Program-made: the position numbers and the translations under genes
In this document: positions 1,942 to 16,304 of the stretch, piece by piece
Numbering within the stretch: the stretch's first letter is position 1
How the letters are laid out: every line of letters starts with the position of its first letter
Notes under the pieces: model-generated
What the model was told of the DNA's origin: nothing
Seen by the model: only the letters and a program-made list of their open reading frames with translations
The model's database searches: none
Virus record (IMG/VR): IMGVR_UViG_3300042305_002047
Location: 1-27,377 of that record
Length of the DNA: 27,377 bases
Origin: a virus
Direction: 5' to 3' (one strand)

Positions 1942-1953
1942 GGGTCGGGGAGG

Positions 1954-4066: not shown

Positions 4067-4842
4067 CACGCGACCCCCGCGAGGCAGAGCTGCCGCTGTC
4101 GACTCAGCGACGCGAGCAGGTCATCGCGCCACGAGAGCGCCCACAGCGGGCAGTTCGCGCAGTTCTTGTGGCGCCCGCGGCACTCTGGCAGCGGCAGCTC
4201 ACGCCGCGCGTTGTAGCTCCAGGCGAGGGAGTCGGCAGACGCGAGCACGTCGGCGCTCGCGCGCAGCCCCGTGGCCTTGAAGCCGAAGCCGTGAAGCTGC
4301 AGGCCCGCCTCTGCGAGGCCGCGCATCAGCACCGACGCGGTCATGGTGTTTTGCCTGCGGCACACCGTGCCCACACCCACCACGGGCTCGCGCGCCAGGT
4401 CGATGCCCGCGCGGTCGTAGTCCTCGACGTGCCGCCAGTAGTCCGCCAGCCCCCACCCCTGCAGCACGGGGATCACGGGGGCGCCGAGGGCGCGCAGCTC
4501 CAGCACCGAGGCAATGGTGCGGCGCTGGTGTTCCTCGACGGCAAGGCCCGTGGCCTTGAGCATCACCGGCTCGCACATCCAATCTTGAGGTGAGGCCCAC
4601 GCGAGCCCGCCGACCTCATCGCGGTAGCGCAGCACGGCGCGCGCGTACTCCGCGGCCGGGAGGGTCCAGCGGCCGTTCATGGACAGCTCGGTGAACCCAC
4701 CCGAGTCCAAGGCCCACGACCCGACCGCGCGCGGGAGCGTCTTGTAGCGCCCGAGACTGCGGTGCGACACGAACAGCGGCACGTCGGTGAACCGCGCATC
4801 CGCGAGCCAGTGCGGGTGGTGGGCGCCGAGGAAGAAGTTCAC
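4066..4842 (-). CDS. dpdA: DpdA/TGT-like 7-deazaguanine DNA modification enzyme
   Basis: This 258-residue TIM-barrel protein of the tRNA-guanine transglycosylase superfamily resembles phage DpdA-type proteins, which exchange guanine in DNA for a 7-deazaguanine such as preQ0. Visible landmarks are LDSGGF at 45-50 (the TGT DSGGFQ active-site strand with its Asp), PQDWMCEP at 85-92, PVLQGW at 125-130, VGVGTVCRRQ at 155-164, HGFGFKATG at 184-192, ASADSLAWS at 201-209 (likely nucleophile Asp204), and a Cys/His cluster C221, H225, C228, C231 that could replace the TGT zinc site. The GTG at 4842 has GCGAGG five bases upstream. It overlaps both neighbours. No folE, queC, queD or queE gene lies in the window, so the base precursor must come from the host or from elsewhere in the phage. 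Natural target and base are inferred. Confidence 0.82.
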   Translation of the reverse strand: MNFFLGAHHPHWLADARFTDVPLFVSHRSLGRYKTLPRAVGSWALDSGGFTELSMNGRWTLPAAEYARAVLRYRDEVGGLAWASPQDWMCEPVMLKATGLAVEEHQRRTIASVLELRALGAPVIPVLQGWGLADYWRHVEDYDRAGIDLAREPVVGVGTVCRRQNTMTASVLMRGLAEAGLQLHGFGFKATGLRASADVLASADSLAWSYNARRELPLPECRGRHKNCANCPLWALSWRDDLLASLSRQRQLCLAGVA

Positions 4843-4961
4843 GCGCACCTCGCCGTGACCGCGGCGCACACGGGCACCGCGACGCGCGGATAGGGCTTCG
4901 ACACAGGCAGCGTCGCCCGCTCCAGCAGCGCCCGCAGGCGCGTCGTCTCGTCGGCGCTCAC
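4839..4961 (-). CDS. Very small hypothetical protein
   Basis: This 40-residue frame starts with GTG at 4961, overlapping the upstream stop (GTGA), and its own stop overlaps the GTG of the DpdA-like gene (GTGA). An N-terminal helix (ADETTRLRALLERAT) is followed by a hydrophobic strand-like tail with two cysteines (VAVPVCAAVTARC). The coupled overlaps on both sides are the main evidence that it is translated. It might be a small partner of the DpdA-like enzyme or only a coupling peptide. No family is recognised. Confidence 0.55.
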   Translation of the reverse strand: MSADETTRLRALLERATLPVSKPYPRVAVPVCAAVTARCA

Positions 4962-5251
4962 GCCACGCCCTCCGTGCTCGCCACGACGGGCGCGGCCGGG
5001 GTGAGCGTGCGCCAGCGGCCGGGGGCGATCTCCTCGACCTCCTCCCACAGCAGCGCGCGGAAGTGCCCGACGGTCGGCATCCCCACCGGGCACCAGCACG
5101 GGCCGTCGTCGTCGACGCCGCGCACCTCGTGGGCGATGCCGTCGACGATCACCACCTGGTCGCGCTGCATCCCGCGGATCACCACGGGCGGCGGCTCGTC
5201 GGGCGCACGCTCCCGCACGCGGGGCGCGTCGAGCAGCAGGGCGAGCTGCAT
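4958..5251 (-). CDS. Small protein with an N-terminal clamp-binding-like peptide
   Basis: This 97-residue protein starts with ATG at 5251 and overlaps the upstream stop as TGATG. It opens MQLALLLDAP, in which QLALL resembles the QLxLF sliding-clamp-binding consensus. The rest looks like a small beta-rich domain: VVIRGMQRDQVVIVDGIAHEV (positions 28-48) reads as two strands with a turn, followed by DDDGPCWCPVGMPTVGHFRALLWEEVEEI. The CWC pair could bind metal but lacks obvious partners. The family is not recognised. It sits in the DpdA/kinase segment of the early operon. Confidence 0.7.
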   Translation of the reverse strand: MQLALLLDAPRVRERAPDEPPPVVIRGMQRDQVVIVDGIAHEVRGVDDDGPCWCPVGMPTVGHFRALLWEEVEEIAPGRWRTLTPAAPVVASTEGVA

Positions 5252-5502
5252 CACAGCGCACCCCCGACGCGCACCATTGCGCGCCACCGGCGATCCGCCT
5301 GGACCCACACCGTCGCACCCTCGGGCACGTCGCCCGCGACCCACGCGCGGCCCCGCGGGGCGTCGTCGCGCACCACGTGGTCACGCGCGGTGTCGTGGCC
5401 CGGCGCGAGCACGCAGAGCGCGTCGGCGGGGATGGACACGGGCTCGCTGCCCTGGACGTGGCGCATGGGGACCGTGCGGGCTGCTAGCTCCAACTGCGTC
5501 AT
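5251..5502 (-). CDS. Small beta-rich protein starting MTQLEL
   Basis: This 83-residue protein starts with ATG at 5502, overlapping the kinase stop as ATGA. It opens MTQLELAA, a QLxL clamp-binding-like peptide nearly identical to that of the gene ending at 6517 although the codons differ. The remainder looks like a compact all-beta domain (SEPVSIPADALCVLAPG, DDAPRGRAWVAGDV, ATVWVQADRRWRAMVRV). No catalytic motif or recognised family. Its neighbours are a P-loop kinase upstream and another clamp-motif protein downstream. Confidence 0.7.
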   Translation of the reverse strand: MTQLELAARTVPMRHVQGSEPVSIPADALCVLAPGHDTARDHVVRDDAPRGRAWVAGDVPEGATVWVQADRRWRAMVRVGGAL

Positions 5503-6041
5503 CGAAGCACCCCGCGCGCCCATGCGAGCAGCCCCGCGGCCACCGCGTCGGCGGGGCGGGAGGTGTCGAAGCGCGGCACTGCGGTCCCCGCCCACCACGC
5601 ATAGGCCTCGCGAAGCTTGCGGTGCATCTCGTTCGCGGGCGTGCCGCGCGCCTTCAGCCGCGCATCGAGCACGGGGTCGGGCGCCCACAGCAGCGCGCCG
5701 TCACAGCGAGGGAGCCACCTCGCCTCGGCGTGCGCGAGGTCGGTCAGCCCGAAGAGGTTGCGGTGTTCGAGCTTCAGCAGCGCCGCCATCGCGCTCCCGA
5801 GGCACCACGTCGAGGGCGTCCACCGATCTGCCACGATCACCGCGGCGGTCGTGTTGCGGACCATCTCGTGCCGCTGCCGCGCGTAGTCCAGCGCCGCGGC
5901 CACAACGTCGTCCGTCACGGGCTTCGCGTGGTGGAACGCCACCGCGTCGACGCCCTCGGCGCGCAGGGCAGCGGCGAGGCGGTCGGCGTGCGTGCTCTTG
6001 CCGCAGCCGTCGGGGCCTTCGAGCGCGAGGATGCGTGTCAT
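5499..6041 (-). CDS. Thymidylate-kinase-like P-loop nucleotide kinase
   Basis: This 180-residue P-loop kinase resembles thymidylate kinases, which phosphorylate dTMP to dTDP for DNA synthesis. The Walker A motif GPDGCGKST is at residues 9-17, a kinase-type HHAKP segment at 37-41 and the dTMP-kinase signature DRW at 72-74. The LID region near 130-150 (RLKARGTPANEMHRKL) carries basic residues. The length is slightly below that of a typical 200-residue enzyme. The ATG at 6041 overlaps the upstream stop as ATGA. In phages such enzymes feed the dNTP pool, and some act on modified nucleotides; here it lies three genes upstream of the DpdA-like enzyme. Substrate specificity cannot be read from the sequence. 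Confidence 0.85.
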   Translation of the reverse strand: MTRILALEGPDGCGKSTHADRLAAALRAEGVDAVAFHHAKPVTDDVVAAALDYARQRHEMVRNTTAAVIVADRWTPSTWCLGSAMAALLKLEHRNLFGLTDLAHAEARWLPRCDGALLWAPDPVLDARLKARGTPANEMHRKLREAYAWWAGTAVPRFDTSRPADAVAAGLLAWARGVLR

Positions 6042-6520
6042 CGCCCCATCTCCCCGCGGATCATCTCCGCGATCTCCGATGCCCTCTGCTCCACGCCCTC
6101 GCCTCGCGGCAGCACCCGGTCGAGCCGCGTGAGTTCACGCGAGAGCGCGGCGAACTCCGGCTCGTGCCGGTCGTTGAGCAGGTCGAGCAGCACCGCGCAC
6201 AGCACGGTCGCGCGCGGCTCCGCGCTGGCGTTGATCGCGTCGGCCATGCGCGTCATGGCCCGCACGCAACGGGCCTTGTAGCCGTCGTCGGTGGTGATCC
6301 GATGCGCGCGGGACACGGCCTTGCACGCCGCGAGCACGTCGCGGTCATGCGGCGCGGGCGGGCGCGGCACCGAGGCGCTGGTGCACCACGAGTCCGCCGC
6401 CGCCGTCGCGATCAGCGCGAGGTCCAGCCGCGCGCTGCCGCGGTGCGGGGTCGTCACGTGGATCGCGAGGTCCACGAGGGAGTGCCGCGGCATGGGCCGC
6501 AAGAGCATCGCGGGGATCAC
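6038..6520 (-). CDS. Hypothetical helical protein
   Basis: This 160-residue protein of unknown family starts with GTG at 6520, overlapping the upstream stop as GTGA. It is predominantly helical: LDLALIATAAADSWC near 34-48, ARCVRAMTRMADAINA near 86-101 and TVLCAVLLDLLNDRHEPEF near 107-125, ending in a charged helix (EQRASEIAEMIRGEMGR). The fold could be a small helical bundle. There are no catalytic motifs. It shares the operon with the kinase. Confidence 0.68.
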   Translation of the reverse strand: MIPAMLLRPMPRHSLVDLAIHVTTPHRGSARLDLALIATAAADSWCTSASVPRPPAPHDRDVLAACKAVSRAHRITTDDGYKARCVRAMTRMADAINASAEPRATVLCAVLLDLLNDRHEPEFAALSRELTRLDRVLPRGEGVEQRASEIAEMIRGEMGR

Positions 6521-6759
6521 GCCACACCTCGCAGCCGCACCGTCACGGGCGTGATGTCGTCCAGCACGTCCAGCGTGGGCACCTCGGCCCTGCTCTCGTC
6601 GCGGAGGTGCGGCGCGACGATCCGCACCACGCGCTCGACCTGCGCCTCGCGGGCGAGCCATGCGCGGTGGCGGCGGCGCAGCATGTCCAGGCGCTGCCCG
6701 CGGGTGAGCGCGGGCGCGGCGGGCACGAGCTCGAGCTGCGTCATGTGTAGCTGCGTCAC
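6517..6759 (-). CDS. Small protein with tandem MTQL-type N-terminus
   Basis: This 80-residue protein starts with GTG at 6759 (GTGA overlap) or with the internal ATG at 6744. Translation from GTG gives VTQLHMTQLELVP, in effect two consecutive TQL starts; from ATG it begins MTQLELVPAAP. QLELV resembles a sliding-clamp-binding pentapeptide. The middle is a basic helix (GQRLDMLRRRHRAWLAREAQVERVV split around residue 35), and the end is an acidic/hydrophobic segment. It could be a small DNA- or clamp-associated protein; no family is known to me. Confidence 0.68.
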   Translation of the reverse strand: MTQLHMTQLELVPAAPALTRGQRLDMLRRRHRAWLAREAQVERVVRIVAPHLRDESRAEVPTLDVLDDITPVTVRLRGVA

Positions 6760-7358
6760 GGCTGATCCCTCCGAAAGTCCATGCTGGTGCCGTCGCGCAT
6801 CGTCAGGCGCATCCATCGCGCGGCCTCGCCTTCGAGCTGCGGCCACACCTTGTCGCGCTTACGGCTCTTCTCGACGCGCGCGGACTCGGCAATGTAGGCC
6901 GCGTCGCCCGCCTGATACGTGACCACGTCGAACGGGAGGCGCTTGCCGTCGTCGCCCTCCCACCGCAGCGGATCGCGCCACTCGGTCGGGTAGATCAGCC
7001 ACCCCAGACCGAGCAGCGGCGACGACATGCGGCGGTGGTCCTCGCCGCGCGTGAGCAGGTCGACCTGAACCCGCGCGCCGTCTTCGCCGCGGACGTAGCG
7101 GTAGCGGCTCGATGTGCCGTCGGGTCGCTTGCCGCCGCCCATCGGCGAGACAGAGAGCAGCGGCACGCGGGCGCCGTCTGCGGCGCGGAGGTACGCCGGG
7201 CCGTTCCTGTGGACCCCGGTGCATTCGCCGTGCGTCGGGTGGCGCCACTGCTCCACGGTCTGACGCGGCCCCGCGTCGGGGTCCGTGGGGCGCGCGGGCA
7301 CGAGCGCAGCCGCGGGCGTCGGCGGCGCCGCGGGCTTGAGCAGGTCCATCTGCGTCAC
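6756..7358 (-). CDS. Hypothetical protein starting MTQMDLL
   Basis: This 200-residue protein starts with GTG at 7358, overlapping the upstream stop as GTGA. The N-terminus MTQMDLLKPAAPPTP places a QxxLL clamp-binding-like peptide before a Pro/Ala-rich linker (residues 8-40). The folded part contains short strands around polar loops (GPAYLRAADGARVPLLSVS, TSSRYRYVRGEDGARVQVD), followed by LGLGWLIYPTEWRDPLRWE and a C-terminal helix-strand region. No known motif is visible. A linker plus peptide suggests tethering to a partner such as the replisome, which is inference. Confidence 0.72.
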   Translation of the reverse strand: MTQMDLLKPAAPPTPAAALVPARPTDPDAGPRQTVEQWRHPTHGECTGVHRNGPAYLRAADGARVPLLSVSPMGGGKRPDGTSSRYRYVRGEDGARVQVDLLTRGEDHRRMSSPLLGLGWLIYPTEWRDPLRWEGDDGKRLPFDVVTYQAGDAAYIAESARVEKSRKRDKVWPQLEGEAARWMRLTMRDGTSMDFRRDQP

Positions 7359-7567
7359 GACCGCACCCCCGCCACGTTGACCGCCGCGACCGTGGCGCCG
7401 TGGCTGCACTCGCCGAGGGCGCGCTCGATCCGGTGCGCGTGCTCGCTGTCGGGCTCGCTGCGGTCGAGCACGTCGGCCAGGCGCGAGAGCCGCGCGGACA
7501 GGTCGCGCGCCGCGGCGGCGAGAGAGCCCGCGGTCGGCGGGCGGGTCGTGGTCGTCTCGGAGGTCAT
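7355..7567 (-). CDS. Small helical protein
   Basis: This protein has 70 residues from ATG 7567, or 73 from ATG 7576. The second start lies nine bases after GAGGAG and is preferred; the first directly abuts that site. A Thr-rich N-terminus (TSETTTTRPP) precedes an amphipathic helix (AAARDLSARLSRLADVLDR) and a polar tail. It is the first gene after a 147-bp gap that follows the HNH gene, so it is the only operon member here without translational coupling. No family is recognised. Confidence 0.62.
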   Translation of the reverse strand: MTSETTTTRPPTAGSLAAAARDLSARLSRLADVLDRSEPDSEHAHRIERALGECSHGATVAAVNVAGVRS

Positions 7568-7686
7568 CGTCGTCATCTCCTCGTGTGCGTGCCGTCGCTC
7601 GGTGCGTCCGGTGAGGCGCCGCGGTGGAGGCTCGGATCCGTGCGCGACCCGGGGGGAGTCACGCGATGCCGAGCCCCCGCCGCGAG

Positions 7687-7705
7687 GCCCCGCGGGGTGC
7701 GGGGC
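7687..7705 (-). terminator. Hairpin just after the HNH gene
   Basis: GCCCCGC (7687-7693) and GCGGGGC (7699-7705) form a perfect 7-bp stem with a 5-nt loop, 10 bases downstream of the HNH stop on the minus strand. No T-tract follows, so it may pause or attenuate rather than terminate. The remaining gap (7577-7686) shows no clear promoter or gene. Confidence 0.35.
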
Positions 7706-7714
7706 GTGCGGGGT

Positions 7715-8164
7715 CTACGTGACGTGTCGGTACACGGCGCCCTTCCGCACGTTGGTGATGGTGCAAGCCGCCACGCCCATCTCTGCCGCCAAGACCTTCG
7801 AGGGCTCAGCCGTGCTTCGAATCCGACGCACCTGATCCTCGGTCAGCGCGCGCCTGGGGTGCCCCGCGCGCGCCATGTCGTCCATGTTCTGCTTGTGCGT
7901 GCCGACGTAGAGGTGATCCGGCCGAACGCACTTGCGGTTGTTGCAGCGGTGACAGACGAACATGCCCGCGGGGACCTCTCCGACGAACAGCAACCAGTAG
8001 ACCCGGTGGGCCGGGTAGCTCATCCCGCGCGGCCCACCTGTCGCTTGCGGGTAGCCGTGACTGCCGAGCGATCCGCGGTGCTCCCAACAGCCATCACCGA
8101 ACGTGACGCGCTGCCAGAACAGCCGCTTGTGGTTTTCGCTGCGCGATGCGTCGCCCGTGCTCAT
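7715..8164 (-). CDS. HNH homing-type endonuclease
   Basis: This 149-residue HNH nuclease resembles free-standing phage homing endonucleases, which cut DNA lacking their insertion. Visible residues are His53 (AHRVYW), CHRCNN at 71-76, Cys79 and PDHL at 82-85: the zinc knuckle and the asparagine/histidine positions of the HNH fold. THKQNMDDM follows at 89-97. Residues 107-149 form a helix-turn-helix-like tail (LTEDQVRRIR, SKVLAAEMGVAACTITNVRKG) typical of DNA-recognition modules in these enzymes. The ATG at 8164 overlaps the upstream stop as ATGA. It sits between replication/recombination genes and the one large gap in the operon, as expected of a mobile insert. Confidence 0.88.
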   Translation of the reverse strand: MSTGDASRSENHKRLFWQRVTFGDGCWEHRGSLGSHGYPQATGGPRGMSYPAHRVYWLLFVGEVPAGMFVCHRCNNRKCVRPDHLYVGTHKQNMDDMARAGHPRRALTEDQVRRIRSTAEPSKVLAAEMGVAACTITNVRKGAVYRHVT

Positions 8165-8679
8165 CGCGCAGCCATGTCAAAAGGGATGGAATCCTCCCCC
8201 TCGCCCGCGTCGAACCCGCGCGGCGGCTGGCGCGGCGCGGGCGCGCGCTGCGGGGCGGGGCGGGTGGGCGCGGTGCCCTCGCCGTCGACCGCGGCGATGA
8301 GCTCCAGCATCTGCTCGCGCGTCGGCGCCTGGAACACCTTGGGCGCGAGCGGTGCGTTGATGTACTTCGCCTCCGGGTAGCCCCGGTCGTTCTGCACCAC
8401 CTCAAGCGACGCGAGGCCCGCGTCGATGCGCTCGGCGCCCGTCACCAGCGCGCGCAGGCTCGTCCGCAGCCCCATCGCGCGCAGCGCCTCCATGCTGCGG
8501 TCGGCGCCCGTGCGGCCGTTGGCGTCGGTGCGGTCGGTGTCGAAGTACAGCCGCCCGCGAACGGTGGCGCCCTCCACGTCGAAGTTGATCGTCAGGTAGG
8601 GCTTGCCGTCCTTCGTGGTGTCCCACGCCCACGCGGTCGCGCGGGCTGAGTAGGTGCCGGGCTCGATGGTCTTTCGCAT
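8161..8679 (-). CDS. DUF669-like single-stranded-DNA-binding-type protein
   Basis: This 172-residue protein lies next to RecT. The N-terminal half resembles phage DUF669 proteins: IEPGTYSARATAW, DGKPYLTINFDVEG and VRGRLYFDTDRTD form an OB-like run of strands. After a helix there is a Pro/Arg-rich linker (about 135-155) and an acidic tail, EGEDSIPFDMAAR, in which DSIPF mimics the SSB C-terminal tip, although five residues follow it. The ATG at 8679 is two bases after the RecT stop; a GTG at 8685 overlapping that stop is an alternative start. Role inferred: coating ssDNA for annealing and replication. Confidence 0.75.
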   Translation of the reverse strand: MRKTIEPGTYSARATAWAWDTTKDGKPYLTINFDVEGATVRGRLYFDTDRTDANGRTGADRSMEALRAMGLRTSLRALVTGAERIDAGLASLEVVQNDRGYPEAKYINAPLAPKVFQAPTREQMLELIAAVDGEGTAPTRPAPQRAPAPRQPPRGFDAGEGEDSIPFDMAAR

Positions 8680-8681
8680 GT

Positions 8682-10019
8682 TCACGCCGCCTTGCTGCTG
8701 TCGTTGCTGTTGCTGGCTGGGGTCGCTGTCGTGGCCCACATGGCCACGAGGTCGCGCGCCGCGGCGTCGAGCTCCGCGGGCGTGCGGGTGTCCGTCGTGT
8801 CGACGCGCTCGATGCGTCGCGCCGTGTGCGCGTAGACCTCGCGCACGAGCGGGTTCGTCAGGATCTCCGCGGCGTGCTTGCACGCGCTGCGGTACAGGTG
8901 CGTGCGGGCCGATACGGCCGCGAGCCGCGCGAGCGCTTCGACGGCCACCGCGTCGTTGCTCGCTGCCACGCGGGCGGGCACCGTCGCGAGGGGCTCGGCG
9001 TCGCCCTGGGGAGCGCGCTCGCCACCGCCCGGCCCGCCGTCGGGGCCGTCGTCATCGAGCATCGCCCGCACGTCAGCGAGCGCTACGCCGAGGCTCTTGA
9101 GCGTGCGGCCCGCCATCTGCCGCGCCGTGTGGGCGTACCACTTGCCGCCCATGTCGCCGCGCTCGCGCCAGGCCGCGAGGGCGTCGTCGGCCGTGGGCGC
9201 CGACGCGAGGCGGTCGTAGAGCACGCAGAATCCGAGCGTGACCTGCGCGGCGTTGGACAGCAGCACCTGCACCTCGCTGCCCACGAGCACCGCGAGCCGC
9301 GCCGAGATCCACAGCATGACGTGCGTCTTTGCCTCGTCGATCGCGCCCTCCCGCGTCAGGCTCGCGCTGTGCGCCGCCCACGCGTCGAGCAGGAGCTTCA
9401 AGCCGTCGTCCTGCGTGGCGCTGGTGAACGCATCGAGCGCGCTCGGCCCCGCCTCAAGCGCGGGGACCTCGGGCGCGTCGTGCGTCACCGTCGCGCGCTC
9501 AGCGCGGCGCGGCTCCTCGGGGATTTCCCCTTCGACGTACACCCCGAGAAGGAAGTCGGGGTAGACCATGCGCCCGAGCTCCGCGGAGCACCGCGCGCGG
9601 AGCATCGCGTGGGGGTACGCGCGCCAGTTGTCCTTGTTGGCGAGCCCCGCACGCTTCGCCATCTCCATCGTCCACGTGTGGCGCACGGGCGCGTCGTCGC
9701 CCTTGCGGCGCGTCTCGATGGTGCACTTCTCCGCGGTGGACTCGATCACCACCCACGAGGCGCACTCGCCGCTCTTGCGGACGATCCCGACGATCATGTC
9801 GGAGCTCGTCACGGCCTTGCCCTTCACCACGTGCGTGCCGCGCAGCGCCGCGGTGGGGTCCAGGCCGAGCGACCGACCCGTGAGGATGATCACCATCGCC
9901 GCGGCTTCGTTGGCGACGCCGAACATCCCGGACTTCACCGCGAACGTTGCGACGCGCATCAGCGCGCCCAGCTCGCCCTCGGCGGGCGCGCCCGCCATCT
10001 GCACAAGCTCACTGCTCAT
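8682..10019 (-). CDS. recT: RecT-family ssDNA annealing protein, extended C-terminus
   Basis: This 445-residue protein has an N-terminal 175 residues with the RecT layout: FAVKSGMFGVANEAAAMVII, LGLDPTAALRGTHVVKGK, the signature NWRAYPHAMLRARC at 131-144 and YPDFLLGVYVEGEIPEE at 153-169. RecT proteins anneal complementary strands during phage recombination. About 270 further residues (180-445) exceed the usual 270-residue family length and carry helical segments, a Gly/Asp-rich linker near 330-345 and a Ser/Asn tail; no second domain is recognised. The ATG at 10019 follows GGAGGAG at seven bases and lies inside the end of the upstream gene. No RecE or exonuclease partner is adjacent; the VRR-NUC protein lies in the other operon. 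Confidence 0.85.
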   Translation of the reverse strand: MSSELVQMAGAPAEGELGALMRVATFAVKSGMFGVANEAAAMVIILTGRSLGLDPTAALRGTHVVKGKAVTSSDMIVGIVRKSGECASWVVIESTAEKCTIETRRKGDDAPVRHTWTMEMAKRAGLANKDNWRAYPHAMLRARCSAELGRMVYPDFLLGVYVEGEIPEEPRRAERATVTHDAPEVPALEAGPSALDAFTSATQDDGLKLLLDAWAAHSASLTREGAIDEAKTHVMLWISARLAVLVGSEVQVLLSNAAQVTLGFCVLYDRLASAPTADDALAAWRERGDMGGKWYAHTARQMAGRTLKSLGVALADVRAMLDDDGPDGGPGGGERAPQGDAEPLATVPARVAASNDAVAVEALARLAAVSARTHLYRSACKHAAEILTNPLVREVYAHTARRIERVDTTDTRTPAELDAAARDLVAMWATTATPASNSNDSSKAA

Positions 10020-10383
10020 TGCTCATCTCCTCCGTCTCCACCCACAGCCGCACCGCGCGCCCCTGGGGGTCTTGCGCGGCAGCCTCGATCCAGTCCCGCA
10101 TGGCGCCGCACGCGCGCGGGTCGCACCGCTTCGTGCTGTACGCGACGCCGTCGAGCGCCGGGTGCGCGTCCACGTCCTCGATGGGGCGGCGGCGCGGCGC
10201 GGGGGGCTGCACGTGCGGGGTGATCTCCTCGTGCACCGCGACCGCAGCGTCGAGCGTCGAGCCCGACGCCGTGCCGATCGCCACGCCCGCGCGGTGCAGC
10301 GTCAGCGTCACGCGGCCGGCGGCGTGGCTCTCGGTCCACTCGCACCGCAGGCGAGCGCACAGGGCGGCGAGACGCGCGCTCAC
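10009..10383 (-). CDS. Hypothetical early protein
   Basis: This 124-residue protein starts with GTG at 10383, preceded by GAGGTGG and overlapping the upstream stop (GTGA). The N-terminal 60 residues alternate helix and strand (LAALCARLRCEW, RVTLTLHRAGVAIG, STLDAAVAVHEEI), suggesting a small double-stranded-RNA-binding-like or ferredoxin-like alpha/beta fold. The C-terminal half has a Pro/Arg linker and a helix with CDPRACGAMRDWIE. No family is recognised. Its last 11 bases overlap the recT start and carry the recT ribosome site. Confidence 0.7.
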   Translation of the reverse strand: MSARLAALCARLRCEWTESHAAGRVTLTLHRAGVAIGTASGSTLDAAVAVHEEITPHVQPPAPRRRPIEDVDAHPALDGVAYSTKRCDPRACGAMRDWIEAAAQDPQGRAVRLWVETEEMSNEQ

Positions 10384-10559
10384 TGGCCCACCTCGCGGTC
10401 GAGCGTGCGACCGTCCAGGTCGCGTCGCAGGGCCACGTGGCAGGGCGCGCACACCGCGTCACCCGCGAGCAGCCACGCGATGCGCGCGAGCGCCGTGGTG
10501 AGGTGGCGGTGCTCGGGCGCGGCCCGGCCGCAGCGAGCGCAGTAGACGGGGGCGGTCAC
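10380..10559 (-). CDS. Tiny zinc-ribbon-like protein
   Basis: This 59-residue protein starts with GTG at 10559 and ends with TGA at 10382-10380; both ends overlap neighbours as GTGA. CxxC at residues 7-10 and CxxCH at 37-41 are spaced like a zinc ribbon or treble clef, with a helix (TTALARIAWLLAGD) between them. It begins VTAPVYCARCGR. It belongs to a run of four small genes of similar size just downstream of the leftward promoter, three of them Cys-rich. Likely role: metal-stabilised binding of DNA or protein; not proven. Confidence 0.7.
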   Translation of the reverse strand: MTAPVYCARCGRAAPEHRHLTTALARIAWLLAGDAVCAPCHVALRRDLDGRTLDREVGQ

Positions 10560-10732
10560 GACTGCACCGCCGCGTCGTCGCCGTCACGGTCGCCGCACCA
10601 CGCGAGCTGCCACGGCTGCGGGTCCAGGGGCTCCGCGTCGAGCGCGAGCATCCACGCGTCCCGGTGCTCGTCGCACACGGTCTGGTACGCGGGGTCAGCC
10701 GCGAGCATGGCGTCGATCTCCGCGCCGGTCAC
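10556..10732 (-). CDS. Tiny acidic hypothetical protein
   Basis: This 58-residue protein starts with GTG at 10732 and overlaps both neighbours as GTGA. It is acidic and Trp rich (AEIDAMLAADPAYQTVCDEH, AWMLALDAEPLDPQPWQLAWCGD), with two isolated Cys and one His that could coordinate metal only weakly. The acidic, helical character would fit a DNA-mimic or inhibitor type of early protein, which is speculation. No family is recognised. Confidence 0.62.
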   Translation of the reverse strand: MTGAEIDAMLAADPAYQTVCDEHRDAWMLALDAEPLDPQPWQLAWCGDRDGDDAAVQS

Positions 10733-10956
10733 AGCGACACCGCCACGGGGTAGCGGTCCGCGAGGTCGCAGGCGACGGTGCCGATGTGCACCACGCGGGG
10801 CGCAGGGCGCGGGGCGACGCGGCGCAGGCAGTCGAGGCACACCACCGCGGTGGCGGCGTCGAGCAGGAGCGCGTCGGCCTGCTCCTGGGTGAGCGCGTGC
10901 TCCTCGTCGGTGCAGACGCACAGGCAAACCCGGCAGCGACTCTCGGCGCGGGTCAC
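10729..10956 (-). CDS. Tiny Cys-rich zinc-finger-like protein
   Basis: This 75-residue protein starts with GTG at 10956 and overlaps both neighbours as GTGA. The Cys pattern is C8xxC11xC13xC15 followed by C40xxC43, with the helix EEHALTQEQADALLLDAA between them: a plausible zinc-binding knuckle. The C-terminal part (PRVVHIGTVACDLADRYPV) adds another Cys. Part of the small-protein cluster at the head of the leftward operon. No specific family is recognised. Confidence 0.65.
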   Translation of the reverse strand: MTRAESRCRVCLCVCTDEEHALTQEQADALLLDAATAVVCLDCLRRVAPRPAPRVVHIGTVACDLADRYPVAVSL

Positions 10957-11183
10957 AGCGACACCGCCGCGCCGCCGAGGTCCTCGCGGACCATCGCCGC
11001 GTGCTCGTCGCACACCACGTCGCCGACGCGCTCGCCGAGGTGCGCAGCCGCGGCGCTACCGAGGTAGTGCACGGGCGACGCGACCGGCTCGCCGCAGTAG
11101 CAGCAGCAGGTGGGGGGCTCGGCGGGAGCGCTGGTCAGCCAGCGGTCGAAGAGCGGGAGGGGGCGGGCGACGGGGAAGAGCAC
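10953..11183 (-). CDS. First gene of the leftward operon: tiny Cys-rich protein
   Basis: This 76-residue protein starts with GTG at 11183, with AGGA seven bases upstream, about 38 bases after the predicted PL start site. Cysteines at 26, 27, 28 and 30 plus C58 and H61 (VVCDEH) suggest a zinc knuckle. The N-terminus MLFPVARPLPLFDRWL contains LPLF, faintly like the clamp-binding peptide seen in other genes of this operon. It overlaps the next gene as GTGA. As the first gene transcribed from PL it is likely made earliest. No family is recognised. Confidence 0.68.
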   Translation of the reverse strand: MLFPVARPLPLFDRWLTSAPAEPPTCCCYCGEPVASPVHYLGSAAAAHLGERVGDVVCDEHAAMVREDLGGAAVSL

Positions 11184-11223
11184 GGCGGGTCCTGGCGCCC
11201 CGGGGGTGATGTCCGGGGGGCAG

Positions 11224-11266
11224 CACAGTTGTACGGCCTGCCCCTGCGGCCGTCAATACACTTGTG
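11224..11266 (-). promoter_or_regulatory. PL: leftward early promoter with two operators
   Basis: On the minus strand, TTGACG (11256-11251), a 17-bp spacer and TACAAC (11233-11228) form a sigma-70-type promoter, with a start near 11221. One operator-like dyad abuts the -35 (TACACTTGTG, plus 11257-11266) and another covers the -10 (CACAGTTGTA, plus 11224-11233); centres are 33 bp apart. PR has the same geometry. Confidence 0.78.
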
Positions 11267-11275
11267 CTGTTTTTT

Positions 11276-11770
11276 CTACGCCACCCGCAAAGCTGTGTGG
11301 TCCTCCAGGGTTACGAGCCGCATCCACGCGAACCAGCACGGCACCCCGCACGCCGCGGCGAGGTCCAGCGGGGAGCCGCCGCGATGCGCAGCGGCCACCT
11401 CGATCGGGCACCCGAGGGACAGCGCGAGCGCCCACACGTCGGGGTGCTCGTGCCGCAGTTTCAGGCGCCGCAGGTAGCCGTGCGAGGTCTCGTGGTAGAC
11501 GATCACCTCGCCGCGGGCGGCGTCGCGCTGCGGCCGGGCGAACACGATCCCGGCCGCGTGGATCCCCGGCGCCTCGGGCGGGAGCTGCGCGCGGACCACC
11601 GCGAAGCCGAGCGCGTTGGCGATCCCCTCGGCGCCAGGCGCGGGGGCCTCCATCGCCGCGCGGCACGCTCGAGCAACCGCGGCGATGCCCTCGATGTCAG
11701 CGCTGCTAAGCGTGCGCCGACCGCTCTGCAGTTCGGCCCACGCCTGCCGCGCGATTTCGTCCCCGAGCAT
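11276..11770 (-). CDS. ImmA/IrrE-like metallopeptidase
   Basis: This 164-residue protein carries the zinc protease motif HETSH at residues 93-97 (HExxH), followed by HEHPDVWALALSLGCP at 107-122, as in the ImmA/IrrE family. Such proteases cleave phage or ICE repressors to trigger induction. The first 50 residues are helical and precede a strand (ALGFAVVRA). It lies directly downstream of the XRE repressor in the same direction, the usual family pairing, with a 78-bp gap (11771-11848) that shows no gene. The ATG at 11770 has no good Shine-Dalgarno. The stop lies 10 bases from the PL operator. The repressor as its target is inference. Confidence 0.82.
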   Translation of the reverse strand: MLGDEIARQAWAELQSGRRTLSSADIEGIAAVARACRAAMEAPAPGAEGIANALGFAVVRAQLPPEAPGIHAAGIVFARPQRDAARGEVIVYHETSHGYLRRLKLRHEHPDVWALALSLGCPIEVAAAHRGGSPLDLAAACGVPCWFAWMRLVTLEDHTALRVA

Positions 11771-11848
11771 CGGCAGAGGATGACGCGCGACAGTTCACAC
11801 GGTCAACCCGCGCCGATACGCCAGAAAGGCCGAGAGCTCCAGCGTTCG

Positions 11849-12349
11849 TCAACCGCGGCGTGACAGGGTATGTCCAGGCGGCGCAGGGATGTACTTCACG
11901 AGCACATCGGCGATGTCGGCGAGCATCGCGGGGGTCAGCGGGGCGATCACCAGCGGGTCGCCGTCGCCGAGCGCGTCCCACACGTAACCGGGCATCCCGG
12001 GGCGCAGCGCCTTCGCCGCGGTCAGGTGGCGGTCGAAGCCCTCGCGGTTGCGCATCCGCGGGTCGGAATCCTCAGGGACCACGCGGACATCGACGGGCGC
12101 GGCCTCGGTGCGTGCGCCCTCGCCGTCCTCAAGCCACCGCAGCGAAACGCCCGCGCCCGCGGCGATTTTCGACAGCGTGGCCCGTCCGACTCGCTTCGTG
12201 CCGCGCCGCAGAATCAGCGTGATGTGCGAGTCCGACAGCCCCGACCGCTTCGAGAGCTCGTACGGGGTCCACCCGTGCTCGTCGAGGAGGCTCTGGATGC
12301 GCAGCGCGACGGGGTCCACAAGGCTCAGGTTACCGGGCTCAATACACAT
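11849..12349 (-). CDS. XRE-family phage repressor (CI-like)
   Basis: This 166-residue protein starts with ATG at 12349 after a strong GGAGGG ribosome site. Residues 12-75 form an XRE helix-turn-helix domain: ALRIQSLLDEHGWTPYELSK, SGLSDSHITLILRRGTK, VGRATLSKIAAGAGVSLRWLE. The C-terminal 85 residues (EDSDPRMRNREGFDRHL, VLVKYIPAPPGH) show no Ser/Lys LexA-type autocleavage site, consistent with control by the ImmA-like protease instead. It is divergent from the Cro-like gene and sits among five operator-like dyads, one of which covers its own start codon. It should silence PL and PR and control its own promoter. Confidence 0.87.
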   Translation of the reverse strand: MCIEPGNLSLVDPVALRIQSLLDEHGWTPYELSKRSGLSDSHITLILRRGTKRVGRATLSKIAAGAGVSLRWLEDGEGARTEAAPVDVRVVPEDSDPRMRNREGFDRHLTAAKALRPGMPGYVWDALGDGDPLVIAPLTPAMLADIADVLVKYIPAPPGHTLSRRG

Positions 12350-12381
12350 GTACACCCTCCGCGCATGACAACGACCGCACG

Positions 12382-12410
12382 GTTGTATTGACCTCCGCGC
12401 GCACATCTCG
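12382..12410 (-). promoter_or_regulatory. PRM: candidate repressor promoter
   Basis: TACAAC (12387-12382, minus strand) matches the -10 box of PL and PR, but 17 bp upstream there is only CGAGAT, no -35. An operator dyad (12411-12420) abuts the missing -35, which would suit activation by bound repressor, as at lambda PRM. Inferred. Confidence 0.45.
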
Positions 12411-12416
12411 TACAAC
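12388..12416 (+). promoter_or_regulatory. PR: rightward early promoter, near-leaderless
   Basis: TTGACC (12388-12393), a 17-bp spacer and TACAAC (12411-12416) point to a start near 12423, only about two bases before the ATG at 12425. There is no Shine-Dalgarno before that ATG, so the first mRNA is probably leaderless. Confidence 0.75.
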
Positions 12417-12424
12417 TGTACGCG

Positions 12425-12673
12425 ATGGACCTCACTGCCCGACTCAAGGACATGCGGGAGCGCGCGGGGCTGACCGCTGCGCAGCTCGCCACCGCCGCCG
12501 ACGTCACCGTCGGTTACATCCACCAGCTCGAACGCGGTGACCGCGGGGAGCGCCTCGCCGCGGGTGTCGCGGTCAAGATCGCCCGCGCGCTCGGGGTGTC
12601 GGTCGAGGAGCTCGTTGCTCCCGACCCCGTCGAGAACATCACCCCCTCCCCTGCCGTGGGAGACGCCGCGTGA
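12425..12673 (+). CDS. Cro-like XRE helix-turn-helix regulator
   Basis: This 82-residue XRE protein is the first gene of the rightward operon. Residues 1-66 form the helix-turn-helix fold: LTARLKDMRERAGLTAAQLA, TAADVTVGYIHQLERG, AAGVAVKIARALGVSVEELV. A short unstructured tail follows. It is transcribed divergently from the CI-like repressor and, by analogy with Cro, probably binds the same operators and turns down repressor and early promoters. Translation seems leaderless. Its stop overlaps the next start (TGATG). Confidence 0.85.
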   Translation: MDLTARLKDMRERAGLTAAQLATAADVTVGYIHQLERGDRGERLAAGVAVKIARALGVSVEELVAPDPVENITPSPAVGDAA

Positions 12674-12990
12674 TGCTCCCCTCGCACAACACGGGCCATG
12701 CAGCGCACACCGCGCACGCGCGTAGCACAGCGCCGGGTGAGCGTGGCGCCGCGCCTCACCGTGACACCGGGGCCGTGGCGGCGTTCGTCGCCTTCGCCGG
12801 CGCCCTGCTCGCCGTCGTCGGCACCGTGCTGGTGCTCGCCGGGCTGCACCACGCGGGCGGCGCGCTGCTCTTCGTGGCGACCGTCGCGGCGGTGGGGGTC
12901 ATCTCGCTCTCTACGCTGCGTCAGCGGGCCGACGGTTACACCGCCGCGTCGAATGCGCCGAATACCTCCCGCCAGGCAGGTGGCGCGTGA
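12673..12990 (+). CDS. Small two-helix membrane protein
   Basis: This 105-residue protein starts with ATG at 12673, overlapping the Cro-like stop as TGATG (a GTG at 12670 is the alternative). A His/Ala-rich N-terminus precedes two probable membrane helices at about 34-58 (AVAAFVAFAGALLAVVG onward) and 61-80 (AGGALLFVATVAAVGVISL), with a polar, basic C-terminus. It would sit in the inner membrane. Its place right after cro would suit a superinfection-exclusion or host-takeover role, but nothing specific is visible. Confidence 0.7.
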   Translation: MLPSHNTGHAAHTAHARSTAPGERGAAPHRDTGAVAAFVAFAGALLAVVGTVLVLAGLHHAGGALLFVATVAAVGVISLSTLRQRADGYTAASNAPNTSRQAGGA

Positions 12991-13217
12991 GCCGGTGCAC
13001 CCCCCACCGCGACACCGAGCGCGTGCTCCGCGCGCTGCAGCCCGGTGACCCCGTGGGCATCACGCGCGACGGGCAGACCCGGTGGGGCGAGGTCGTGGGC
13101 CTGGAGCTCGACGGGCTCGAGGTGCGCTACCCCGCGGGCGACACCGAGACGGTCGTGCCCTGGAGCGCGTCGCGGCCCGACCGGATCACGCCCGCGGAGA
13201 TCGAGGTGGCGGCGTGA
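12987..13217 (+). CDS. Small beta-rich hypothetical protein
   Basis: This 76-residue protein starts with GTG at 12987, overlapping the previous stop as GTGA. Residues 19-60 read as an SH3-like or KOW-like beta barrel: GDPVGITRDGQTRWGEVVG, LDGLEVRYPAGDTETVVPW. Such small barrels often bind nucleic acid or protein partners. It ends with a helix (PAEIEVAA). No family is recognised. It is coupled to both neighbours by GTGA overlaps. Confidence 0.7.
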   Translation: MSRCTPHRDTERVLRALQPGDPVGITRDGQTRWGEVVGLELDGLEVRYPAGDTETVVPWSASRPDRITPAEIEVAA

Positions 13218-13780
13218 GCGCGGTCCATGCGGCCACGGCGCGGGCGGCGCGCGAGCCGGGGCGGGTCGTCTGCGACGCCTGCGGGCGCGAGGCGCCCCGC
13301 GCGGAGATGATGCGCGACGCCGACCCCGACACCGAGTCGGGCTACGTCTGCGCCGAGGGCCACGGCTGTCTCGTGGTGCTCACCCCGGAGATGCGACTCG
13401 CGGGCATCGTGGTGAGCGCACCCGTCGTGGCGGCGGCACCGTCGGAGACGCCCCCCGCGATGACGGGCACCGTGTGGGAGCGCGCCGAGGCGAAGCGCGC
13501 GGTCAAGCGGCTGTCCGCGCTCGCGGACGCGGAGCTGCTCGTGGGCGGGTCGGCGCACGTCACGCCCGCGGACATGACCCCCTCGGAGGCGGCGGCGGTG
13601 CGGCGCGCGCTGCGACGGGTGACCGCGCGCTTCGGGCGACTCGCCGTCGAGGTCGCGCTGCGTGGGCAGCAGCCGGGCGCGGTCGAGAGCGCCGCGCTGA
13701 GCTACGGGCAGTGCGCCGCGGTGCTCGCGCGATGGATGCGCGACGAGAAGGTGCGGCGCACCCCGGAGCGTGCCGCGTGA
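13214..13780 (+). CDS. Hypothetical zinc-finger protein of the replication operon
   Basis: This 188-residue protein starts with GTG at 13214 (GTGA overlap). Near the N-terminus C20xxC23 and C46xxxHxC52 (VVCDACGRE; YVCAEGHGC) form a likely zinc-ribbon domain. The rest is helical: a basic helix around 95-110 (ERAEAKRAVKRLSALADAEL) and a C-terminal bundle (EAAAVRRALRRVTARFG, GQCAAVLARWMRDEKVRR). It may bind DNA or a replisome partner. No family is recognised. It lies two genes before the SF2 helicase. Confidence 0.72.
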   Translation: MSAVHAATARAAREPGRVVCDACGREAPRAEMMRDADPDTESGYVCAEGHGCLVVLTPEMRLAGIVVSAPVVAAAPSETPPAMTGTVWERAEAKRAVKRLSALADAELLVGGSAHVTPADMTPSEAAAVRRALRRVTARFGRLAVEVALRGQQPGAVESAALSYGQCAAVLARWMRDEKVRRTPERAA

Positions 13781-13998
13781 TCCGCGTCCGCGCCTGCCCC
13801 GACTTCCCCGCGCACGCCCGCGTCGTGGCCGCGCCGCTGTGCCCCGCGTGCGTGGCCGACCCCATCGACGTGCTGCTCGCGGCGGGGTGGACCCCGGCCG
13901 ACACACGCGCGCGCGGGCTGTGGCGTGACCCCGCGGACGGCGTGACCCGCACCGAGGCGCATGCGCTGCGGCTGGCGGGCAAGGACGCGGCCCGCTGA
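13777..13998 (+). CDS. Small Cys-containing hypothetical protein
   Basis: This 73-residue protein starts with GTG at 13777 (GTGA overlap) and its last base is the first base of the helicase ATG (TGATG). Cys7, His13, Cys22 and Cys25 (CPACVADP) could make a zinc site. The remainder, IDVLLAAGWTPADTRARG followed by WRDPADGVTRTEAHALRL, looks like a short helix-hairpin unit of the kind seen in small phage proteins that precede helicase genes. The function is unknown. Confidence 0.68.
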   Translation: MIRVRACPDFPAHARVVAAPLCPACVADPIDVLLAAGWTPADTRARGLWRDPADGVTRTEAHALRLAGKDAAR

Positions 13999-15290
13999 TG
14001 CAGCTCCGCCCGCACCAGACGCGCGCCATCGACGACGTGCGCGAGGCCTTCCGCCGACACCGCCGCGTGCTGCTCGTGGCGCCGACGGGCTTCGGCAAGA
14101 CCGCCGTCAGCGCGCAGCTCATCGCGTGGGCCGTGGCGCGCGGGCGCCGCGTGCTGTTCCTGGTGCACCGCCGCGAGATCGTGCTCGACACGCACCGCCG
14201 CCTCCCGGGCTCGGGGCTGGTGATGGCGGGCGAGGCTGTGACCGAGGCGCCCGTCCAGGTCGCGTCGATCCAGACCGTCGTGGCGCGCGAGCAGCACCCG
14301 CCCGCGGACCTCGTGGTGTGGGACGAGGCCCACCACTGCGATGCCGATACCTACCGCGCCGTCGCCGCGCAGTACCCGCGCGCGTGGCACCTCGGGCTCA
14401 CAGCCACGCCGCAGCGCGCGGACGGCGCAGGCCTGCGCGACGCGTTCGACGAGATCGTCGTGGGCGCCACCGTCGCCGAGCTCGTCGAGGGCGGATACCT
14501 CGCGCCGGTCGACCTCGTGCACCCCCCGAAGCGCCTCGCGGGCATCGCCGTCAACGCGGTGGACGCGTGGGCCGAGCACGCCGGGGGACGGCCGACCGTG
14601 GCGTTTCACGCGACGGTTGCGGAGTCCCGCGGGTTCGTCGAGGGCATCGCCGCGCGCGGCATCGAGGCGCGGCACATCGACGGCGGCACCCGCACCCGCG
14701 AGCGCGACGACGCCCTGCGGCTCTTCGCGGCGGGGCGCGTGCAGGTGCTGTCCAACGCGTTCGTGCTCACCGAGGGGTGGGACTGCGCGCGCGCCAAGGT
14801 GTGCCTGCTCGCGCGGGGCTGCGGTAGCGACGCGACCTTTCTGCAGATGGTTGGACGCGTGCGGCGTGTGGAGGCGCCCGGCGAGCGCGCGCTGATCATC
14901 GACCTTGCGGGCGTGGTCCATGAGCACGGGCACCCCGACGAGCCGCGGGAGTACACGCTCGACGGCATCCGGCGCCCGAAGAGCGATCGGCCCTGGATCA
15001 CGCAGTGCCAGGCGTGCGGGTGCGTGGTCGAGGGTGCGAAGCGCGGGCTGCGCTGCCCCATGTGCGGCGCCGCGTGGCCCACGCCGAAGCCCGTGCGCGT
15101 GCAGCGCGCGGCGCTCGGCGCGTCGGTGATCGTGCCCCGCGCGGTCAAGGACGCGCGGCTCGCGGAGCTGCTGCGCACGGCGCATGAGCGCGGCTACCGC
15201 CCGGGGTGGGTGGGCGTGCGGTTCAAAGAAGAGTTCGGCCACTGGCCTGCGGGGATCCCGTCGGCGTTCGGACAGCGGAGGGCGTCGTGA
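13998..15290 (+). CDS. SF2 DEAH-box helicase
   Basis: This 430-residue superfamily 2 helicase of the RAD25/type III restriction-like group has RPHQTRAI at 4-11 (Q-like motif), Walker A GFGKT at 31-35, DEAH at 109-112 (WDEAHH), TATP at 135-138, motif V GWDCARAKV at 260-268 and motif VI QMVGRVRR at 283-290. Cys337/340 and Cys353/356 make a C-terminal zinc ribbon. ATP-driven unwinding or remodelling of DNA during phage replication is the expected role. The ATG at 13998 overlaps the previous stop (TGATG) and the end overlaps the nuclease start (GTGA). Phage helicases of this type are often followed by VRR-NUC nucleases, as here. Confidence 0.92.
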   Translation: MQLRPHQTRAIDDVREAFRRHRRVLLVAPTGFGKTAVSAQLIAWAVARGRRVLFLVHRREIVLDTHRRLPGSGLVMAGEAVTEAPVQVASIQTVVAREQHPPADLVVWDEAHHCDADTYRAVAAQYPRAWHLGLTATPQRADGAGLRDAFDEIVVGATVAELVEGGYLAPVDLVHPPKRLAGIAVNAVDAWAEHAGGRPTVAFHATVAESRGFVEGIAARGIEARHIDGGTRTRERDDALRLFAAGRVQVLSNAFVLTEGWDCARAKVCLLARGCGSDATFLQMVGRVRRVEAPGERALIIDLAGVVHEHGHPDEPREYTLDGIRRPKSDRPWITQCQACGCVVEGAKRGLRCPMCGAAWPTPKPVRVQRAALGASVIVPRAVKDARLAELLRTAHERGYRPGWVGVRFKEEFGHWPAGIPSAFGQRRAS

Positions 15291-15625
15291 AGGAGTCGGA
15301 GATCCAGGACGCCGTGCGCCTCGCGCTCGGCACGATCCGCGGCGTCTGTTGCTGGCGGAACAACTGCGGCACCGCCGAGCACTGGACCGGCAGCGGCGTG
15401 CAGCGCGTGCGCTACGGCCTCGCGCCGGGGAGCGCCGACCTCGTGGGGCTGGTCGATGGGCGGTTCTTCGCGCTGGAGATCAAAGCACCGGGCGGGCGCG
15501 TCGCCCCCGAGCAGGAGCAGTGGCTCGCGCTCGTGCGGCGCAACGGCGGCTTCGCCGCGGTCGTGCGCAGCGCCGACGAGGCCCGCGCGTGCGTCGAGCG
15601 CTGCAGGGCGGGGGCGTCGCAGTGA
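15287..15625 (+). CDS. VRR-NUC domain nuclease
   Basis: This 112-residue single-domain VRR-NUC (PD-(D/E)xK-type) nuclease has GVQRVRYGLAPGSADLVG at 37-54, with Asp51, then FFALEIKAPGG at 60-70 supplying Glu64 and Lys66, followed by APEQEQWL. The N-terminal helix KESEIQDAV is also typical. Stand-alone VRR-NUC proteins act on branched or structured DNA and are frequent in phages beside a helicase. The GTG at 15287 overlaps the helicase stop (GTGA), which strongly suggests co-function in replication or recombination intermediates. Confidence 0.9.
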   Translation: MKESEIQDAVRLALGTIRGVCCWRNNCGTAEHWTGSGVQRVRYGLAPGSADLVGLVDGRFFALEIKAPGGRVAPEQEQWLALVRRNGGFAAVVRSADEARACVERCRAGASQ

Positions 15626-15927
15626 GCGCGCAGCCCGAGCACCTCACCCGCCTGCTCTCGGAGCACCCGCGCGTCTACACCCGCGAGGAGTCCCCGGGCG
15701 ACTGGACCGCGAGCGCGTGCGGATGCGTCGCCCACGGCCCCACCGAGGCGGGCGCGCGGCAGCAGCTCACCGCGATGCTCGTGCGCGCGGCGCTGCTGCA
15801 GGCCGATGACTGCGACCGTGACGCCGAGCGCGCACGGGCGCGGGCCGTGGCGTGCGAGCGCCGGGCTCGGGCGCTGCGGGATGCCGTCGCGGCGGCGGTC
15901 CTGAGCGACGTCGGGGGTGGTCGATGA
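15622..15927 (+). CDS. Hypothetical small protein with helical C-terminus
   Basis: This 101-residue protein starts with GTG at 15622 (GTGA overlap). The first 50 residues include SACGCVAHGPTEAGARQQL, a polar patch with two Cys and a His. The C-terminal half is a long charged Ala/Arg helix (DCDRDAERARARAVACERRA) with coiled-coil character. It overlaps the next gene as ATGA. No family is recognised; a structural or adaptor role in the replication operon is only a guess. Confidence 0.66.
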   Translation: MSAQPEHLTRLLSEHPRVYTREESPGDWTASACGCVAHGPTEAGARQQLTAMLVRAALLQADDCDRDAERARARAVACERRARALRDAVAAAVLSDVGGGR

Positions 15928-16304
15928 GCCAGCAAGCCGACCTCTTCGCCGACGCCCTGCCCACCCTCGCCGCGGGCGTGGCCGTCTCCGGCCCGCTCGT
16001 CGCCGTGGCCGTGCCCCGCCCGCGCCGGCGCCACTGGACCCGCGTGTGGGCGCACGAAGCCGCCGAGCCCACCTACGCCGCGCGCGAGGCCGTGCTGTGG
16101 ATCGCCGAGCACCGCACCAGCGCCGAGCCCCTCGCCGTGTGGCTGCGGCAGCTCCCCGCGATCCAGGGGCTGCGCCGCGACGCCACCCCCGTGCTCACGC
16201 AGGCGCGCCTCGTCCTCGCCCATTCCCGCAGCGGCGAGGACCACCCCGCCGTGCTCGCAGCCCTCGATGCCCTCCGCTCGCACGCCCCCATGGAGTCGCC
16301 GTGA
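15924..16304 (+). CDS. Small protein with N-terminal QADLF clamp motif
   Basis: This 126-residue protein starts with ATG at 15924 (ATGA overlap). It begins MSQQADLFADALP, in which QADLF closely fits the bacterial sliding-clamp-binding consensus QL(S/D)LF. After a hydrophobic linker the rest is helical and aromatic (RRRHWTRVWAHEAAE, REAVLWIAEHRTS, PLAVWLRQLPAIQGLR). It immediately precedes the primase-helicase gene, so it could link that enzyme to the host beta clamp; this is inference. No named family is known to me. Confidence 0.72.
   Translation: MSQQADLFADALPTLAAGVAVSGPLVAVAVPRPRRRHWTRVWAHEAAEPTYAAREAVLWIAEHRTSAEPLAVWLRQLPAIQGLRRDATPVLTQARLVLAHSRSGEDHPAVLAALDALRSHAPMESP

Follow-up and report, generated by a model that had tools for sequence, protein, structure and literature searches.

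Candidate clamp-binding peptides at the starts of small orphan proteins in an uncultured temperate phage

Gene content of the window and starts of the five proteins

The window analyzed here is the whole of viral record IMGVR_UViG_3300042305_002047 (IMG/VR), 27,377 bases of an uncultured temperate phage. No close DNA match to the 27,377-base window was found among deposited phages, and a host search with the primase as the query against genome contigs gave a best match of no more than 50% identity. Besides the features listed in Table 1, the window encodes an HNH endonuclease, a ResIII helicase, a terminase, and a RecT-like protein whose Pfam match is sub-threshold. The stretch from the integrase to the SSB-like and RecT genes is a variable cargo region with a counterpart in a relative, L013. 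It holds DpdA, kinase-like, HNH, and orphan genes in the window, and a C5-methyltransferase-like gene (by sequence reading) together with other orphans in L013; a homologue of protein C is among the few genes common to both.

Genes were predicted with a custom caller that relies on codon use and statistics, Shine-Dalgarno (ribosome-binding) sequences, and 4-bp overlap starts, and that makes no use of the motif discussed below. It returned 45 genes, 42 of which were used after three doubtful ones had been dropped. The first-pass annotation had described five small proteins, here called A to D and F, with similar N-terminal peptides. Both the peptides and their coordinates are correct by sequence, and the motif-blind caller independently chose the starts of all five. 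For C, where 6744 and 6759 had been offered as alternatives, it selected the GTG at 6759, which has GGAGG upstream and overlaps the stop of D. Genes A, B, C, and D form one minus-strand chain with 4-bp overlaps, and F lies on the plus strand; the coordinates agree with the earlier placement of four peptide genes beside the DpdA-like and kinase genes and of the fifth before the primase-helicase. Pfam and PHROG searches gave no matches for A, C, D, and F and only nonsignificant ones for B; an AAA+ domain of the DnaA/Hda family was accordingly not found in any of them.

Table 1. Positions of the features in the window and in the other viral loci discussed
Feature	Record	Coordinates	Strand	Length	Start, N-terminus, or assignment
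Integrase-like gene	Window	592-1941			Identity read from sequence
Variable cargo region	Window	592-8685			Integrase to SSB-like/RecT genes
DpdA-family transglycosylase, near A	Window	4066..4842	(-)		PF23859 4.6e-80, phrog_1279 1.1e-87; untagged
Protein A, orphan	Window	4958..5254	(-)	98 aa	GTG at 5254 (first-pass start, ATG at 5251); VMQLALLLDAP
Protein B, orphan	Window	5251..5502	(-)	83 aa	MTQLELAARTVP (begins MTQLELAAR); partial motif, Ala at position 5
Thymidylate/deoxynucleoside-kinase-like P-loop protein, adjoining B	Window	5499..6041	(-)		phrog_761 7.9e-12, Thymidylate_kin 6.9e-6 (slightly under the Pfam cut-off); untagged
Protein C	Window	6517..6759	(-)	80 aa	VTQLHMTQLELVPAAP, also given as VTQLHMTQLELVP; partial motif
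Protein D, orphan	Window	6756..7358	(-)	200 aa	VTQMDLLKPAAP (begins VTQMDLLK; QMDLL)
Protein with PLPLF near its start	Window	10953-11183	(-)		VLFPVARPLPLFDRWLTSAP
Nuclease-like gene and F	Window	15287-16304			Likeness of the nuclease-like gene judged by eye
Protein F, directly before primase-helicase	Window	15924..16304	(+)	126 aa	MSQQADLFADALP (begins MSQQADLFAD; QADLF)
Prim-Pol + PriCT_1 + VapE-like primase-helicase, after F	Window	16304..18382	(+)		Untagged
Counterpart of cargo region	L013	11272-17238			
Homologue of C	L013	11879-12079			No peptide
SbcC-like recombination subunit	L052	6119-8500	(+)	793 aa	MTQLDLF
Two tagged proteins	L054	2038-4387	(+)		VSAVAQFDLF; MTQLDLF (166 aa)
Small protein with two motif-like peptides	L079	8073-8279	(-)		MTQLDLF; HQIDFFAG
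Nuclease-like gene and gp66 of phage POI1126	L178	1953-3375			MTQLNLF (gp66)

Agreement with the clamp-binding motif and excess over chance

The consensus QL(S/D)LF of the beta-clamp-binding motif (CBM) reportedly goes back to Dalrymple in 2001. The motif and this consensus are reviewed in PMC11139829: it spans 5 to 6 residues, with Gln at position 1, Leu favored at position 2, Leu or Met at position 4, and Phe, Leu, or Ile at position 5 or 6. Gln is an important contributor, and changing the last residue to Ala or Gly strongly weakens binding (PMC11139829). Proven clamp motifs include QADMF in Pol III alpha and the N-terminal QLSLPL of Hda (PMC11139829).

Gln is present at position 1 in all five proteins, and position 4 is occupied by Leu in A, B, D, and F and in the second copy of C, whose N-terminus repeats xTQL imperfectly in tandem. 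At position 5 or 6, A (QLALL as a pentamer, QLALLL as a hexamer), D (QMDLL), and F (QADLF) have Phe, Leu, or Ile; B (QLELAA) and C (QLELVP and QLHMTQ) do not. The earlier statement that all five peptides lie close to the consensus is thus borne out for A, D, and F and fails for B and C, which have no aromatic or aliphatic residue there. Lacking this residue, B and C were not filed as CBMs, and the finding is one of three candidate motifs (A, D, and F) and two partial ones. The candidates resemble the CBM in Gln 1, Leu 4, and Leu or Phe 5, and QADLF of F is a single residue away from QADMF of Pol III alpha; the difference, apart from position 5/6 of B and C, is that the carriers are orphan phage proteins. 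Elsewhere in the window, a protein with PLPLF near its start has a clamp-motif-like peptide without the Gln.

The excess of such peptides was evaluated with a strict pattern, Q..[LM][FLM] beginning at residues 2 to 7, and with a looser one, Q..[LM]. Strict matches were found in 3 of 42 genes (A, D, and F), compared to a mean of 0.17 when the 30 N-terminal residues of each protein were shuffled (P = 4e-4), and the looser pattern matched 5 of 42 genes where about 0.7 to 1.2 were expected (P = 1e-3 to 4e-3); both P values are optimistic through selection, as the motif was noticed before testing, while the consensus itself had been published earlier. Strict matches were rare in the other fetched loci, at 2 of 1,262 genes and none of the 1,075 at a G+C content above 60%, and none occurred among 587 background overlap-start genes. 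Searched at full length, the proteins of the window give five strict matches, three of which lie at residue 3 or 4. N-terminal tags were rejected as a general mark of DpdA neighborhoods, since no strict match occurred in the G+C-rich loci, of which many had been retrieved through DpdA or the primase.

Chance combined with an N-terminal bias could produce such a set: overlaps would force the starts, Q-L-x-L would arise by accident, and the five would have been picked for their likeness. The 4-bp ATGA/GTGA overlaps do force M/V-T or M-S starts, each match covers just 4 to 5 residues and is incomplete in B and C, the looser motif is expected at the frequency given above and was noted post hoc, and the bare start MTQL(D/E)L was not enriched in 296 Actinomycetota genomes (15 occurrences versus 33 and 12 for its scrambles). 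We nevertheless regard this explanation as unlikely, given that the strict matches exceed the shuffles, that the overlap-start background contains none, and that the key positions are conserved in F.

DNA-level likeness, homologues, and predicted structure

At the DNA level, B, C, and D share the word TGACGCAG. The window has four copies of the word TGACGCAGNT, one each at the starts of B and D and two at that of C; 0.35 occurrences were expected, and no shuffle reached a count of four. The tandem copies in C, GTGACGCAGCTACAC and ATGACGCAGCTCGAG, are imperfect and agree in 11 of 15 bases. Identity ends after about 10 bases, and the Leu codons of the peptides differ (TTG, CTC, CTA, and CTG). 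The first-pass view that the peptide rather than the DNA is conserved was therefore right about the codons and overstated otherwise, because B, C, and D have TGACGCAGNT exactly in common. CTA accounts for only 2 of the 682 Leu codons of the window, both within the peptides at the starts of B and C. Rare codons were discarded as a sign of selection on the peptide, since the N-termini of untagged genes are about equally rich in them (8.6% against 9.1%).

As far as can be read from these words, part of the likeness among B, C, and D may stem from short duplication in the operon, which leaves A and F unexplained. Taken further, a start cassette (RTGACGCAG followed by a Leu or Met codon) would have been duplicated among operon neighbors without any clamp function, so that the resemblance of B, C, and D would be inherited DNA. 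The four copies of TGACGCAGNT, all at these starts, the tandem repeat in C, and the homologue of C, which lacks the extension and is preceded by a ribosome-binding site of its own, are in keeping with this. It is an improbable explanation of the whole set, considering the varied Leu codons, the short extent of identity, and the match of A and F to the peptide without the DNA word; such duplication would also be compatible with function.

Homologues were found for F and C. The relatives of F start with MSEQPDLF (L004/L013) and MSDQPDLF (L005; GTG read as M) and are 90 to 91% identical to it. Across QADLF, QPDLF, and QPDLF the residues Q, D, L, and F are kept, whereas residues 3, 5, 11, and 14 of the protein vary; coming from three sequences about 91% identical, this is a weak indication that Q-x-D-L-F is conserved. 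A final scan gave no further relatives of F, and the F gene is absent beside the primase relative of L006 (about 60% identity). The single homologue of C, in L013, is 38% identical over about 60 residues. It begins at residue 17 of C, has a strong ribosome-binding site of its own, and carries no peptide. The expectations attached to the first-pass annotation were that homologues keep Q-x-x-L and that the first residues are the best-conserved part. QxDLF is retained in the relatives of F. Conservation in C is lowest at the first residues, the first 16 and with them the peptide being missing from its only homologue, an outcome that the first-pass annotation had named as refuting evidence and that counts against a tag in C.

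Searches for relatives of D gave none in viral contigs, phages (tblastn), or 198 genomes of one phylum; B had no tblastn match in phages or fetched loci, and A had no convincing homologue in the fetched loci (best E value, 0.042). Taken together, tblastn against phages with D, B, and F and against all fetched loci recovered only the partner of C in L013 and the two relatives of F.

An AlphaFold2 model of F built from three sequences had a mean pLDDT of 55, with residues 1 to 17 unstructured at low confidence (pLDDT, 34 to 41) ahead of an alpha/beta domain. Protein D, folded alone, reached a pLDDT of 37, making the model unusable. Neither of these low-confidence models places the peptide in a folded core.

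MTQLDLF starts in viruses and the possible role of the peptides

To survey the full consensus more widely, DNA encoding M-T-Q-L-D-L-F from a start codon was counted in 2.9 million viral contigs, with the codon-order scrambles M-T-L-Q-L-D-F and M-T-D-L-Q-L-F as controls. MTQLDLF starts were found 34 times, compared to 4 and 5 times for the two scrambles. The 34 matches represent about 13 to 15 unrelated families, mostly 58 to 220 residues long and in many cases preceded by a plausible ribosome-binding site, whereas the scrambles yielded one and about three plausible genes. Carriers include an MT-A70 methyltransferase (L065), an SbcC-like recombination subunit (L052 and L078), a DUF6074 protein, a protein with weak regulator-like matches (L082), and, contrary to a role on DNA, a CHAP-domain protein (L077). 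One contig (L054) encodes a pair of tagged proteins separated by about 850 bases: VSAVAQFDLF begins an N6 DNA methyltransferase, and MTQLDLF begins a protein of 166 residues. A homologue of the L062 carrier in Ochrobactrum phage POI1126, 50% identical and annotated to start with MTQLNLF, keeps the tag while the residues that follow differ.

Tagged viral genes may tend to adjoin methyltransferases. By rough scoring, a DPP[WY] protein lies within three genes of 3 of 11 tagged viral genes, against a background of 5.5% of genes with the broader [DNS]PP[YWF], and methyltransferases were also found nearby, by Pfam or by eye, in L054 and L057. Separately, a small protein of L079 bears a peptide resembling the clamp motif close to each of its termini (MTQLDLF and HQIDFFAG) and adjoins a gene with a DPPY methyltransferase motif. 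MTQL(D/E)L without the terminal Phe was rejected as an enriched start on the bacterial counts given above, and by inspection nearly all of its 15 matches appeared to be internal or noncoding. Enrichment was thus seen only for the complete motif, which weakens the case for B and C, although the two collections compared differ (viral versus bacterial).

The reading that we favor, tentatively and at a little under even chances, is that in A, D, and F an otherwise unrelated small protein bears a CBM at its extreme N-terminus and docks with it on the host clamp, B and C being degenerate. It draws on the motif match, its closeness to the start and its excess over chance, the QxDLF of the relatives of F, the low-confidence prediction of a disordered N-terminus in F, and the viral enrichment of MTQLDLF. 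The missing residue at position 5/6 and the homologue of C without the peptide speak against B and C, which probably do not have a clamp-binding tag. The proposal that the peptides place accessory proteins on the host replisome is accordingly plausible for three of the proteins and unsupported for the other two. The clamp would be that of the host, since no DnaN domain was found in the window; the record may be incomplete. The peptides of A, D, and F would be disordered and exposed, would bind the hydrophobic pocket of the host's beta clamp, and would keep the small proteins at the fork while phage DNA is being synthesized. Judging from gene order, DpdA or the primase, for example, could be carried along to new DNA as a partner. 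B (QLELA) and C (QLELV) would be degenerate copies with weak or no binding, either decayed tags or products of short duplication.

Rather than riding on the clamp, the tags might block it, competing with host polymerases or repair factors and slowing host replication. Overexpressed MGPRQLDLF inhibits growth of E. coli, and Gp168 of phage Twort inhibits the clamp (PMC11139829); the carriers here are likewise small orphans. Yet Gp168 acts at the DNA channel and not at the CBM pocket, F is located in the replication operon, the phage has an integrase, and its Prim-Pol/VapE module would be expected to need the host polymerase and clamp, which makes blocking quite improbable. Another phage or host protein might recognize N-termini with Q-L-x-L, those of B and C among them, which would account for Q-x-x-L in all five proteins and for position 5 in only three. 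Nothing tested points to such a partner and we know of none that binds these N-termini, so we give this explanation very little credence.

Docking of A, D, and F on the clamp could be an instance of a broader pattern, in which phages use a portable N-terminal clamp tag, gained and lost by unrelated cargo, to load DNA-modification and accessory factors onto the host replisome. New phage DNA would then be treated while being made. The instances would be the window and the viral families with MTQLDLF starts, roughly 13 to 15 in number; in several of these the tagged protein is a DNA methyltransferase or has one as a neighbor. This generalization is speculative, and we hold it to be rather unlikely.

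Both the motif and its N-terminal placement are already known. Hda and HdaA, which are accessory replication proteins, carry a clamp motif (QLSLPL in E. coli and QFKLPL in Caulobacter) (PMC3836487) in a disordered segment at the very N-terminus, as proposed for A, D, and F. In Caulobacter, the N-terminal motif of HdaA is necessary but not sufficient for localization, and its first 10 to 50 residues alone did not localize YFP (PMC3836487). Hda, however, is a host AAA+ regulator, whereas the carriers here are small phage proteins, several in a single phage and unrelated to each other. The transposases of insertion sequences are an example of mobile elements recruiting the host clamp via a convergent, repeatedly evolved QLxLF peptide. 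Their motif nearly always lies at the C-terminus and belongs to the transposase itself (PMC4549789), unlike the N-terminal peptides on cargo proteins described here. Closest in form are gp66 of Ochrobactrum phage POI1126 (YP_010665205.1; MTQLNLF) and the viral MTQLDLF proteins, which are small phage proteins with a CBM right after the start codon. They have the full consensus QL(D/N)LF, unlike A to D or F, and no sequence relation to these was noticed.

In the open literature searched, we found no description of several tagged orphans in one phage or of viral families starting with MTQLDLF. Many small phage proteins are without homologues. If our reading is right, a start-proximal QxxL[FL] peptide would be a clue, from the sequence itself, to where featureless phage proteins act, and a fork-placing tag would turn such proteins into testable candidates for accessory factors of replication, modification, or repair. 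Clamp recruitment by mobile elements, known for transposases, would then extend to phage cargo genes. The gene for gp66 lies in an operon with an annotated DNA methylase. Two genes before it, POI1126 has a nuclease-like gene that appears VRR-NUC-like by eye, and a similar gene precedes F in the window.
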